IMG/VR virus record: IMGVR_UViG_3300024319_000003
Coordinates: 103,697 to 167,696 of that record
Origin: a virus
DNA length: 64,000 bases
Strand: one strand, 5' to 3'
Shown: positions 52,095 to 60,035 of the stretch, one piece after another
Layout: each line of letters starts with the position of its first letter
Numbering within the stretch: position 1 is the stretch's first letter
Made by a program: the position numbers and the translations under genes
The notes under the pieces: model-generated
Databases searched by the model: none
What the model was told of the DNA's origin: nothing
The model's input: only the letters and a program-made list of their open reading frames with translations

Positions 52095-52883
52095 ATGGCA
52101 CATTGTGTAGTAAGTTTAAGTGGTGGAATGGATAGTAGCACCCTATTGTTAAGAGCTATCGAAAAGTATGATACTGTAACAGGTATATCATTTGACTACG
52201 GTCAAAAACACAGAGTTGAACTTGAAAGAGCTCAATCGTTAATTGATTATCTAGCAGATAAAGGTCACAAAGTAAATTATCGTCAAATTAAATTAGATGG
52301 ATTAGTAGACTTACTAGATTCAGCTTTAACTGAAGGAGGTAAAGATGTACCAGAAGGTCATTACGAGCAAGAGAATATGAAAGAAACTGTTGTTCCTAAT
52401 AGAAACAAAATGTTCGCTTCTATAACTCAAGCAGTAGCTTTATCAGTAGCAAATAAAACAGGAGAACCTTGTGATATCGCTTTAGGTATTCATGCTGGTG
52501 ATCATGCAGTTTATCCTGATTGTAGACAAGAATTTAGAGATGCAGATGATAAGGCATTTAGAATGGGAAATTGGGATGCAGATAGAGTAGGTTATTTCAC
52601 ACCTTATTTAGATACTGATAAATTTGGTATCTTACAAGATGGATTAAATTTATGTGAGGTTCTAGATTTAGATTTTGATGAAGTTTATAGAAGAACAAAC
52701 ACATCATATAAACCTTACCCGTCAGGAAATAGTGATTATAAGTCAGCATCTTCAGTAGAACGTATTGAAGCATTTATTGCATTAGGAAGACCTGATCCAG
52801 TACAGTATGAAGATGAAACAGGAGAAGTTGGTTATGAAGTTGCAAGAAGACACGTTGAAAACGTTTTATCATCATATTTATAA
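52095..52883 (+). CDS. queC: 7-cyano-7-deazaguanine synthase (QueC), zinc site altered
   Basis: A 262-residue ATP-dependent enzyme converting 7-carboxy-7-deazaguanine and ammonia into preQ0. The PP-loop SGGMDSST is at residues 9-16, with FDYGQKHRVEL following and VPNRNKMFASI at 100-110. In typical QueC the C-terminus has four zinc-binding cysteines before VER-x-EAF; here that segment (residues 201-226, around SYKPYPSGNSDYKSASSVER) has Ser/Tyr/Lys and no Cys. The fold otherwise matches closely, so the protein probably works without zinc or uses other ligands. It is the first gene of the deazaguanine set in this window. Confidence 0.88.
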   Translation: MAHCVVSLSGGMDSSTLLLRAIEKYDTVTGISFDYGQKHRVELERAQSLIDYLADKGHKVNYRQIKLDGLVDLLDSALTEGGKDVPEGHYEQENMKETVVPNRNKMFASITQAVALSVANKTGEPCDIALGIHAGDHAVYPDCRQEFRDADDKAFRMGNWDADRVGYFTPYLDTDKFGILQDGLNLCEVLDLDFDEVYRRTNTSYKPYPSGNSDYKSASSVERIEAFIALGRPDPVQYEDETGEVGYEVARRHVENVLSSYL

Positions 52884-52906
52884 TCTTGAATTTAAATAAT
52901 TAAGAT

Positions 52907-53053
52907 ATGAGCACTCAAAGTAACCAAACAAACGGTAACACTCAGCTTAATTCTGAAAGAAATAAACTCAACAGTAGAGTAGATAAACTCAGAATGCTTA
53001 GTCAAACCAAAAAAGTACAGTGGGATGGTATGCGAAGACATCGCACCATCTAA
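52907..53053 (+). CDS. Small basic protein, 48 aa
   Basis: An ATG-started frame of 48 codons beginning STQSNQTNGNTQLNSE and ending MRRHRTI. It is rich in Asn, Gln, Ser, Arg and Lys. No family is recognised. It fills the gap between queC and the tRNA gene; its stop is 6 bases before the tRNA. Small size makes it uncertain, but no other feature explains this stretch. Confidence 0.45.
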   Translation: MSTQSNQTNGNTQLNSERNKLNSRVDKLRMLSQTKKVQWDGMRRHRTI

Positions 53054-53059
53054 AGGTAG

Positions 53060-53132
53060 GGGGATTAGCTCAGCTGGCTAGAGCGCTTGCCTTGCACGCA
53101 AGAGGTCATCGGTTCGACTCCGATATTCTCCA
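53060..53132 (+). tRNA. tRNA-Ala (anticodon TGC)
   Basis: A 73-base cloverleaf. The acceptor GGGGATT pairs with ATTCTCC, the D arm is AGCTCAGCTGGCTAGAGC, the anticodon stem is CTTGC/GCAAG with loop CTTGCAC (anticodon TGC), and the T arm is ATCGG-TTCGACT-CCGAT. The 3' CCA is not encoded. One T-T mismatch lies in the acceptor. It strongly resembles flavobacterial tRNA-Ala as I remember it. It reads GCA and other Ala codons, which are frequent in the phage fibre and tail genes. Confidence 0.93.
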
Positions 53133-53151
53133 CAACAAATATGAATAAAAG

Positions 53152-53180
53152 TTGTTTTATAAGTTTATTATTCATATATT
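53152..53180 (+). promoter_or_regulatory. Promoter, TTG-N20-TATATT, after the tRNA
   Basis: AGTTGT with TTG at 53152-53154 and TATATT at 53175-53180, 20 bases apart. The small membrane protein gene begins 45 bases after it and is followed by queD and queE. Confidence 0.7.
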
Positions 53181-58207: not shown

Positions 58208-58225
58208 CATTTTTTTTCTTATATT
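58197..58225 (+). promoter_or_regulatory. Promoter, TTG-N20-TATATT, for the kinase gene
   Basis: TTG at 58197-58199, in the last codons of the formyltransferase gene, and TATATT at 58220-58225, 20 bases apart. The kinase ATG is 15 bases downstream. Confidence 0.62.
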
Positions 58226-58240
58226 AAATAAAAGGTTTTT

Positions 58241-58762
58241 ATGATAAAAAGAATAGCATTAGTAGGAGCAAGTAGTACAGGTAAGACTACTGTATATGAA
58301 TTATTAAAAAATAAATTACCTAAATATGAATTCGTAAACGAATCTACTAGAACTGTAGGTAGTTACGGATTTCCTATCAACGAGGAAGGTACTTGTGCTA
58401 CTCAGTTAGCTATTAGTAGTTTTCATTTAGAAGCTTTACTCCAACCTTATAACTTAGTACTAGATAGATGTTATATGGATGTTGTAGTTTATACTAAATT
58501 TATGAAAGGGGTAACTTCACATACGTACAGTTATATAGAAGATACTTGGAATAGGGTTAAAAATGAATATACTCATTATATTTACTTCCCTATTGAATTC
58601 GATTCAGTAGATGATGGAGTAAGGAGTATAAGTGAAGAGTGGAGAAAAGAAGTAGATGATGAATTTAAAGCAGTACTAGACGGAGTACGTCAACCTTACT
58701 TAACTATAACTGGTTCTCCTATGCAAAGAGTAGAACAAATAATGAAATTTATAAATGTATAA
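58241..58762 (+). CDS. P-loop nucleotide/nucleoside kinase-like protein
   Basis: A 173-residue protein with Walker A GASSTGKTT at residues 9-17, then EFVNESTRTVG (Arg/Glu lid-like motif) and VLDRCYMDVVVYTKF (DR-x motif). It resembles NadR-like and AAA_28 kinases that phosphorylate nucleosides or nucleotides. Possible jobs are dNMP phosphorylation or nicotinamide riboside phosphorylation; the substrate cannot be told from the motifs. It overlaps the next gene by 8 bases. Confidence 0.72.
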   Translation: MIKRIALVGASSTGKTTVYELLKNKLPKYEFVNESTRTVGSYGFPINEEGTCATQLAISSFHLEALLQPYNLVLDRCYMDVVVYTKFMKGVTSHTYSYIEDTWNRVKNEYTHYIYFPIEFDSVDDGVRSISEEWRKEVDDEFKAVLDGVRQPYLTITGSPMQRVEQIMKFINV

Positions 58763-59120
58763 ATACGGAGCTAAATTAATTAGAGTAGTCGACGGAGATA
58801 CCGCAGATGTAATGATCGATTTGGGTTTTGATACTTGGGTTAAAGCAAGGTTAAGATTTAAAGGGGTTGACACTTGGGAAAAGAGAACAAGAGATTTACA
58901 AGAAAAAGCTAAAGGCTTAGAAGCCTCAGCATTTACAAAAAAGTATCTAGAGATGAATGATGGTAATTTTATCATTCAGTCGTACGGGAAAGGTAAGTAC
59001 GGTAGGATATTAGCTGAAATTTTCATAAAAGGAGAAGAAACCTCTTTAAATAAACTACTAATCGAAAACGGCCACGCTTACATATACGAGGGTGGTAAAA
59101 AACAAACATTTAAAAATTAA
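58755..59120 (+). CDS. Staphylococcal nuclease-like protein
   Basis: A 121-residue SNase-fold protein. Catalytic residues fit: R34 and E42 (LRFKGVDTWE, spacing eight as in R35/E43) and R84 (GKYGRILAE, equivalent to R87). VVDGDTADV (residues 11-19) supplies the calcium-binding Asp residues. No signal peptide is seen, so it acts inside the cell or virion, perhaps in host DNA breakdown or recombination. It is coupled to the kinase gene. Confidence 0.85.
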   Translation: MYKYGAKLIRVVDGDTADVMIDLGFDTWVKARLRFKGVDTWEKRTRDLQEKAKGLEASAFTKKYLEMNDGNFIIQSYGKGKYGRILAEIFIKGEETSLNKLLIENGHAYIYEGGKKQTFKN

Positions 59121-59123
59121 ATT

Positions 59124-60035
59124 ATGGCAGACGTAAAAAATTATCAAGAAGTAGTAGAAATAGCATCAAAGCATTTAGGTAAAGTTGGTGGTGATGGGTA
59201 TAAAGACACCTACTCACCTGAACTACTGGTCAAAGTACCAAGGTATTTGAATAGAGAAGGATACGGGTTAACCGATAAAAGCTTCGTAGGAGTAGATACT
59301 TGGAACTGTTACGAAGTCTCAGCAATTACAACTAAAGGTCAACCTGTAGCAGGTATGCTAAAAATTGTATGCCCTTCAGACTCAGAATATCACGTAGAAT
59401 CTAAATCTATTAAACTGTATTTAAATTCTTTTAATATGACCAGACTAGGAGATTGTTCAGCAGATTGTATGGCTGTGATAGAAGCTAGGGTAAAAGAAGA
59501 TTTAGACAAATTACTGGAAACAAATACAACAGTAAGTTTTTATAGTGATTTAGAGGACGGAAAAGCACTATCTTTTGAAGGTTATACAGATTTAGGTGAG
59601 ATAGTAGATTTAGATCAAATAGACTTTACAGCTTTTCAATCTGATGCTTCTCAGCTACTTATAGAAGATACTTCAGATACTCCAAAAGAAATAAAATTAA
59701 GATCTAACTTATTAAGATCTAACTGTAGAGTAACGAATCAACCAGATTGGGGTGATGTATTTATTAGAATGAATGGTAAAAATTTACCAGCAGTAGATTC
59801 GTTAGCTAAGTATATTGTATCTCATAGAACGGTAAGTCATTTTCATGAAGAAATATGTGAAATGGTATTTAAGCATTTAATGGATGCGTATAAACCAGAC
59901 GATTTAATGGTATCATGTCTATACACTAGACGAGGTGGTTTAGATATTAACCCTATTAGAGCTACGCATTCAAGATTTATACCAGACTTTTTTACACACA
60001 CAGATTATAGAATTGAAAAAACCTTAAGACAGTAA
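59124..60035 (+). CDS. queF: NADPH-dependent 7-cyano-7-deazaguanine reductase (QueF)
   Basis: A 303-residue, E. coli-type (long) nitrile reductase that turns preQ0 into preQ1 (7-aminomethyl-7-deazaguanine). The QueF motif is SKSIKLYLNSFN (residues 93-104). The active-site Cys is C201 (LLRSNCRVTNQPDWGDV) with D208 seven residues later; H241 and E242 are in SHFHEEICE. LYTRRGGLDINPIR (267-280) is the strongly conserved C-terminal motif. It is three bases after the SNase-like gene. Its presence distinguishes this pathway from phages stopping at preQ0 and supplies the amine for formylation. Confidence 0.93.
   Translation: MADVKNYQEVVEIASKHLGKVGGDGYKDTYSPELLVKVPRYLNREGYGLTDKSFVGVDTWNCYEVSAITTKGQPVAGMLKIVCPSDSEYHVESKSIKLYLNSFNMTRLGDCSADCMAVIEARVKEDLDKLLETNTTVSFYSDLEDGKALSFEGYTDLGEIVDLDQIDFTAFQSDASQLLIEDTSDTPKEIKLRSNLLRSNCRVTNQPDWGDVFIRMNGKNLPAVDSLAKYIVSHRTVSHFHEEICEMVFKHLMDAYKPDDLMVSCLYTRRGGLDINPIRATHSRFIPDFFTHTDYRIEKTLRQ

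Follow-up and report, generated by a model that had tools for sequence, protein, structure and literature searches.

Gene content of the cassette

The window analyzed here is the terminal 64 kb (64,000 nucleotides, nt) of the 167,696-bp IMG/VR virus record IMGVR_UViG_3300024319_000003. It carries a cassette predicted to make and insert a 7-deazaguanine base, which occupies positions 52095-60035, exactly from the start of queC to the stop of queF. As listed in Table 1, the gene order is QueC, tRNA-Ala, QueD, QueE, a phosphoribosyltransferase-like protein, FolE, a MazG-like protein, DpdA, a PurN-like formyltransferase, a P-loop kinase, TNase and QueF. The queE gene overlaps queD by 11 nt, and dpdA overlaps the PurN-like gene, as an earlier sequence-only reading of this DNA had noted, also by 11 nt. 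Other proteins of the window include a contractile tail (sheath and baseplate), gp32-like and UvsX-like proteins, a DnaB-type helicase, ribonucleotide reductase and a family A DNA polymerase; given the contractile tail genes, the phage is a myophage. A DNA similarity search found no close relative of the window among phage records. Its proteins and gene order match those of Flavobacterium phage immuto, and we regard it as a putative uncultured, contractile-tailed phage of the Immutovirus type.

Table 1. Features of the cassette, with window positions and supporting matches (E-values unless stated otherwise).
Feature	Position	Strand	Evidence and remarks
QueC-like, 7-carboxy-7-deazaguanine (CDG) to preQ0	52095..52883	+	PF06508 3e-37; PHROG 1e-41; zinc-cysteine motif absent
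tRNA-Ala (TGC)	53059-53133		between queC and queD; sole tRNA in the window
QueD-like (6-carboxytetrahydropterin synthase)	53439..53903	+	PF01242 1.3e-14; phrog_2389 1.3e-38; HGY variant of zinc site
QueE-like radical S-adenosylmethionine (SAM) CDG synthase	53893..54681	+	radical SAM Pfam 4.6e-7; phrog_2076 2.8e-51; PDB CDG synthase 1.2e-8
Phosphoribosyltransferase-like	54972..55376	+	phrog_8995 2.9e-15; PRK09177 1e-7; in most relatives
FolE, GTP cyclohydrolase I	55441..56154	+	PF01227 3.3e-42; PHROG 2e-60
MazG/PRA-PH-like nucleotide pyrophosphohydrolase	56159..56686	+	PF01503 2.3e-8; cluster-conserved (synteny)
DpdA-like DNA guanine transglycosylase (candidate)	56878..57675	+	fold and motifs; 265 aa
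PurN-superfamily formyltransferase (DpdN candidate)	57665..58207	+	PF00551 (Formyl_trans_N) 1.4e-9, above cut-off; 180 aa
AAA_28 / dTMP-kinase-like (dTMK/NadR-like) P-loop kinase	58241..58762	+	PF13521 8e-18
QueF, two-domain NADPH nitrile reductase, preQ0 to preQ1	59124..60035	+	PF14819 (QueF_N) 3.5e-28; PF14489 (QueF) 2.9e-17

FolE, QueD, QueE, QueC and QueF were found where the sequence-only reading had placed them, with E-values far beyond chance. The same reading had held that their main catalytic motifs were present, and this stood for FolE, whose C..HH..C zinc ligands are retained in the alignment to PDB, and for QueF, in which both domains, the catalytic Cys, the Asp, the His-Glu and the QUEF motif are intact (TIGR03138, 7e-71; aligned PDB NADPH-dependent QueF, 3.7e-45). 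It did not stand for the zinc cysteines of QueC (0 of 4 present) or for the zinc histidines of QueD (1 of 3). In two relatives (L037 7016-7924 and L040 9057-9971; L and G numbers are our handles for loci and records), a diverged QueF (35-36% identical) takes the place of the usual one, beside an ordinary DpdA and formyltransferase. The cluster loop of QueE has a five-residue insertion (C-x3-C-x7-C) that is kept throughout the clade.

In a motif check against the signature motifs reported in PMC13329287, QueC keeps SGGxDS, YxQxHxxE, VPxRN and YPDC as well as the essential Tyr, while S, D, S and S stand at the four Cys positions of the CX8CXXCXXC zinc motif; its NCBIfam score is 128, under the cut-off of 150. 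The zinc cysteines are lost in the whole main clade of phage QueCs (also in L087 2671-3732) and in the QueC of Pseudomonas phage Iggy. Zinc-type QueC is found in other relatives that carry the formyltransferase (L157 and L159-L162). Since formyltransferase-bearing relatives have either type, the pathway appears to tolerate both and to be independent of QueC type, and the idea that a zinc-less QueC breaks the pathway was rejected. QueD retains Cys27, His31 and the Asp-His dyad, and has lost the equivalents of two zinc histidines: at the position of His16 most relatives have W, and Y stands at that of His33. This HGY-type QueD is common to phages phiST, phiSM, Iggy and MA9V-3; the standard form is found in CAjan, Ares, Dp-1 and CP220.

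The DpdA candidate and the PurN-like formyltransferase

The DpdA candidate had no match in Pfam, NCBIfam or the PDB sequences, and its PHROG match is a family of unknown function (phrog_19058, 1.9e-55). Its AlphaFold2 model has a predicted local distance difference test score (pLDDT) of 89. The sequence-only reading had named grouping with barrels other than tRNA-guanine transglycosylases (TGTs) as the result that would count against it; in a Foldseek search, all 50 of the PDB matches listed were TGTs (best E-value 5.5e-8, probability 1.0). D53, D84, VVQG, HHLLG, E194 and SLDTSNP are kept in all or nearly all relatives, the catalytic Asp pair and base-binding positions being assigned to TGT residues by motif. 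Asp144, present in all QueF-positive rows of the alignment and unaligned in the three QueF-negative rows, might mark DpdAs that insert preQ1, but in CP220 the gap may simply come from two extra residues ahead of an Asp. The protein adjoins 7-deazaguanine synthesis genes, and is 78% identical to the annotated DpdA of immuto and 44% identical, over 97%, to a Campylobacter phage CP220 protein. DpdAs of this kind are frequent in IMG/VR: two scans picked out over 500 stretches each that encode relatives.

The identity of the neighboring gene as a PurN-like formyltransferase was borne out by sequence (PF00551), by fold and by the catalytic residues. The AlphaFold2 model (pLDDT 87) matched GAR (glycinamide ribotide) transformylases (PurN), ArnA-type and other sugar N-formyltransferases and formyl-tetrahydrofolate (formyl-THF) deformylases (PurU) in PDB. 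N97, H99 and D138 correspond to N106, H108 and D144 of E. coli PurN, and they are invariant in 11 diverse members of the family. Two other PurN residues, N13 and E173, make contact with glycinamide ribotide; in their place, 11 of 11 members have Glu and Ser. This pattern suggests that the folate half has been retained and that the acceptor half has been re-specialized. Apart from the cassette gene, the whole record has no Formyl_trans_N gene.

We scored the cassette genes by profiles in 241 loci and selected 100 representatives (95% DpdA identity), each followed by 4 kb or more of sequence. Profile scoring found both formyltransferase and QueF in 61 representatives, QueF only in 31, neither in 7 and formyltransferase only in 1. 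In that last one (L151) the contig ends there, and two representatives counted among the 31 (L073 and L074) actually carry the formyltransferase. In a scan seeded solely with the formyltransferase, DpdA was found upstream and QueF downstream in 68 of 68 loci long enough to test; these loci overlap the 241-locus set and are related, so that they represent strong linkage rather than 68 independent events. Formyltransferase without QueF was not found in loci long enough to tell, and QueF without formyltransferase was common. The formyltransferase thus requires QueF while the reverse is untrue, as N-formylation of preQ1 predicts. The family is nearly missing from 84,980 bacterial and archaeal genomes, with only two matches, both of which adjoin DpdA.

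Predicted pathway and order of the last steps

Taken together, the gene set, the folds of its products, the catalytic residues that they conserve and the strict linkage between the genes, all observed here, point to a cassette that makes N-formyl-deoxy-preQ1 (N-formyl-dPreQ1) in phage DNA, to which we give a probability of about 0.8. In this pathway, phage FolE, QueD, QueE, QueC and QueF would produce preQ1 from GTP, DpdA would put preQ1 in place of guanines in the replicated DNA, and a formyl group, presumably from 10-formyl-THF, would be transferred to the aminomethyl nitrogen by the PurN-like enzyme. The end product would be 7-(formylamino)methyl-7-deazaguanine in DNA, which might replace guanine to some extent and may protect the DNA from restriction. 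The path from GTP to formyl-preQ1 proposed in the sequence-only reading has good support, with an enzyme for every step and a formyltransferase tied to both DpdA and QueF. Several points weigh against this assignment. Zinc ligands are absent from both QueC and QueD; the DpdA profile matched no PDB sequence even at an E-value of 10, that is, no solved TGT, and membership of DpdA in the TGT type is probable by fold and motifs; and preQ1 amine as the acceptor is suggested by gene linkage.

We consider it fairly likely that formylation follows insertion by DpdA and thus acts on DNA. The DpdA residues that should surround the base do not track the tailoring class: the DpdAs of a locus with the formyltransferase (L058) and a locus with an FkbH-GNAT protein (L072), at 89% identity, do not differ in the pocket. 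A pocket that is independent of tailoring class, with near-identical DpdAs beside different tailoring genes, favors insertion of preQ1 first. This argument from the pocket is indirect, and a tolerant DpdA would also explain the pattern. One pocket residue, C189 (the TGT V262 position, by motif), was considered as a marker of acyl class and rejected, as L058 and L072 both have Thr-Ser.

The same product would arise if the formyltransferase acted on free preQ1 and DpdA inserted ready-made N-formyl-preQ1. The small-molecule formyltransferase fold with no extra DNA-binding domain and the overlap of the gene with dpdA are in line with this order, which we nevertheless hold to be the less likely one given the constancy of the pocket across tailoring classes, even at 89% DpdA identity, and the existence of a large clade whose DpdA, of the same kind, has QueF but no tailoring gene with it. 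Inactive QueC and QueD in a partly decayed cassette that needs host preQ0 or preQ1 would account for the missing zinc ligands. However, the remaining motifs are near-invariant in 22 QueC and 42 QueD sequences, unlike decay, and the HGY-type QueD also occurs in phiST, phiSM, Iggy and MA9V-3, with an Iggy QueC that has no zinc cysteines either; decay is therefore improbable.

Cyanophages carry purN, and the PurN-like gene could be an auxiliary GAR transformylase for purine synthesis in a phage with plain dPreQ1. PurN families are indeed its best-named matches (TIGR00639, 2.4e-10; PHROG phrog_9240), but the TIGR00639 score is 40 bits against a cut-off of 150, the glycinamide ribotide contacts are replaced invariantly, linkage to DpdA and QueF holds in 68 of 68 loci, and purine synthesis does not explain why acetyltransferase-like genes occupy the same position in relatives; we give this very little weight. 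A PurU-like 10-formyl-THF hydrolase or a sugar-nucleotide formyltransferase, although both kinds of enzyme turn up in the fold matches, is just as improbable, since 180 aa leave no space for the PurU ACT domain, there are no adjacent sugar-nucleotide genes, and the enzyme is linked to QueF and DpdA.

Tailoring genes of relatives and known systems

The position just downstream of DpdA and before QueF, here called the tailoring slot, differs among relatives. It is empty in a large clade, where the order is DpdA-kinase-QueF; this compact cassette was seen in L165, L167-L200 and others. QueC was found elsewhere in 2 of 3 such records searched (G005 and G008), and phages with DpdA, kinase and QueF only are predicted from their genes to have plain dPreQ1 DNA. 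In other loci the slot holds a free GNAT protein (L216, L227 and L185), a GNAT domain fused to the kinase (L065 and L068), or an FkbH-domain and GNAT protein with a glyoxalase-like gene (L072, L083 and L098). QueF is kept in these relatives wherever the contig reaches (L072 ends before QueF). The formyltransferase was not found in the records of these relatives, including the 184.5-kb L216 record, which also carries FolE and QueC. In L072, a radical SAM gene (2841-3851; the nearest NCBIfam model is viperin-like, well below cut-off) lies between MazG and DpdA.

On a DpdA tree built by a quick method and with many weak branches, the six tailoring states required 8 changes. The free-GNAT loci form one supported clade, and the kinase-GNAT fusion is nested in the formyltransferase clade. 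The FkbH-GNAT type is on two DpdA backgrounds, each with a formyltransferase-bearing sister, and about 99% identity among the FkbH-GNAT proteins themselves suggests recent exchange. We tentatively propose, at somewhat less than even odds, that the slot is a swappable N-acylation slot and that lineages differ in how they cap the primary amine of dPreQ1: some with a formyl group, others probably with an acetyl group (GNAT) or perhaps with a glyceryl-type acyl group (FkbH-GNAT). The formyl cap would be that of the window phage and most relatives; the acetyl and glyceryl assignments are guesses from the GNAT and FkbH families.

The P-loop kinase lies downstream of DpdA in 94 of 100 DpdA representatives, CP220 included, and stays beside DpdA even in phages without QueF or formyltransferase (CP220, L002 10813-11355; CC_R7, L093 3802-4344). 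A possible role is phosphorylation of a nucleotide formed by salvage of the guanine that DpdA releases. The phosphoribosyltransferase-like protein could possibly salvage that guanine to GMP, re-feeding FolE.

The sequence-only reading had described the pathway as complete within one phage segment. The set is complete but less exceptional than this might suggest: the isolated Flavobacterium phage vB_FspM_immuto_2-6A (Immutovirus, MW353175; recorded host Flavobacterium sp. LMO8) has the same order, QueD-QueE-phosphoribosyltransferase-FolE-MazG-DpdA-PurN-like-kinase-QueF-PolA, annotated already as DpdA, QueC/D/E/F, FolE and 'PurN'. Its proteins are mostly 51-83% identical to those of the window, the PurN-like protein only 51%. 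Unlike the window, immuto has small open reading frames between genes, lacks the TNase gene and has QueC elsewhere in the genome, not directly 5' of QueD. Campylobacter phages of the CP220 type, which belong to Firehammervirus and have 2'-deoxy-7-amido-7-deazaguanosine (dADG) and DpdA3, share a DpdA 44% identical to that of the window with the kinase gene directly downstream but, unlike the window, have no QueF or formyltransferase near DpdA. Cui et al. in 2023 (NAR 51:9214, doi 10.1093/nar/gkad657; cited in PMC12783734) reportedly described the N-formyl-dPreQ1 base (fdPreQ1) and the enzyme DpdN, to which the product and enzyme class predicted here are alike. Protection of phage DNA by 7-deazaguanines has been reported (Hutinet et al. 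2019, PMC6884629); in that work CAjan, Rosebush and Dp-1 have FolE, QueD, QueE and QueC with DpdA, as in the window, and Dp-1 has a QueF-type enzyme and dPreQ1. In contrast to the window, these three have no adjacent annotated formyltransferase, other DpdA subfamilies and zinc-type QueC.

Formyl-preQ1 chemistry is thus not new in kind, and what the window contributes is one more phage, uncultured and Immutovirus-like, with a predicted N-formyl-dPreQ1 base. Novelty would lie in the swappable acyl slot; if it is true, some phage DNAs would contain N-acetyl-preQ1 or a larger N-acyl-preQ1, bases for which we found no report. These phages appear to exchange the last gene only and to keep the same kind of DpdA, so that nothing but the acyl group should distinguish the DNA of one relative from that of another. 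Such a set of phages would offer a clean test of which restriction enzymes of the host are defeated by each cap, and of whether DNA is the substrate for capping.

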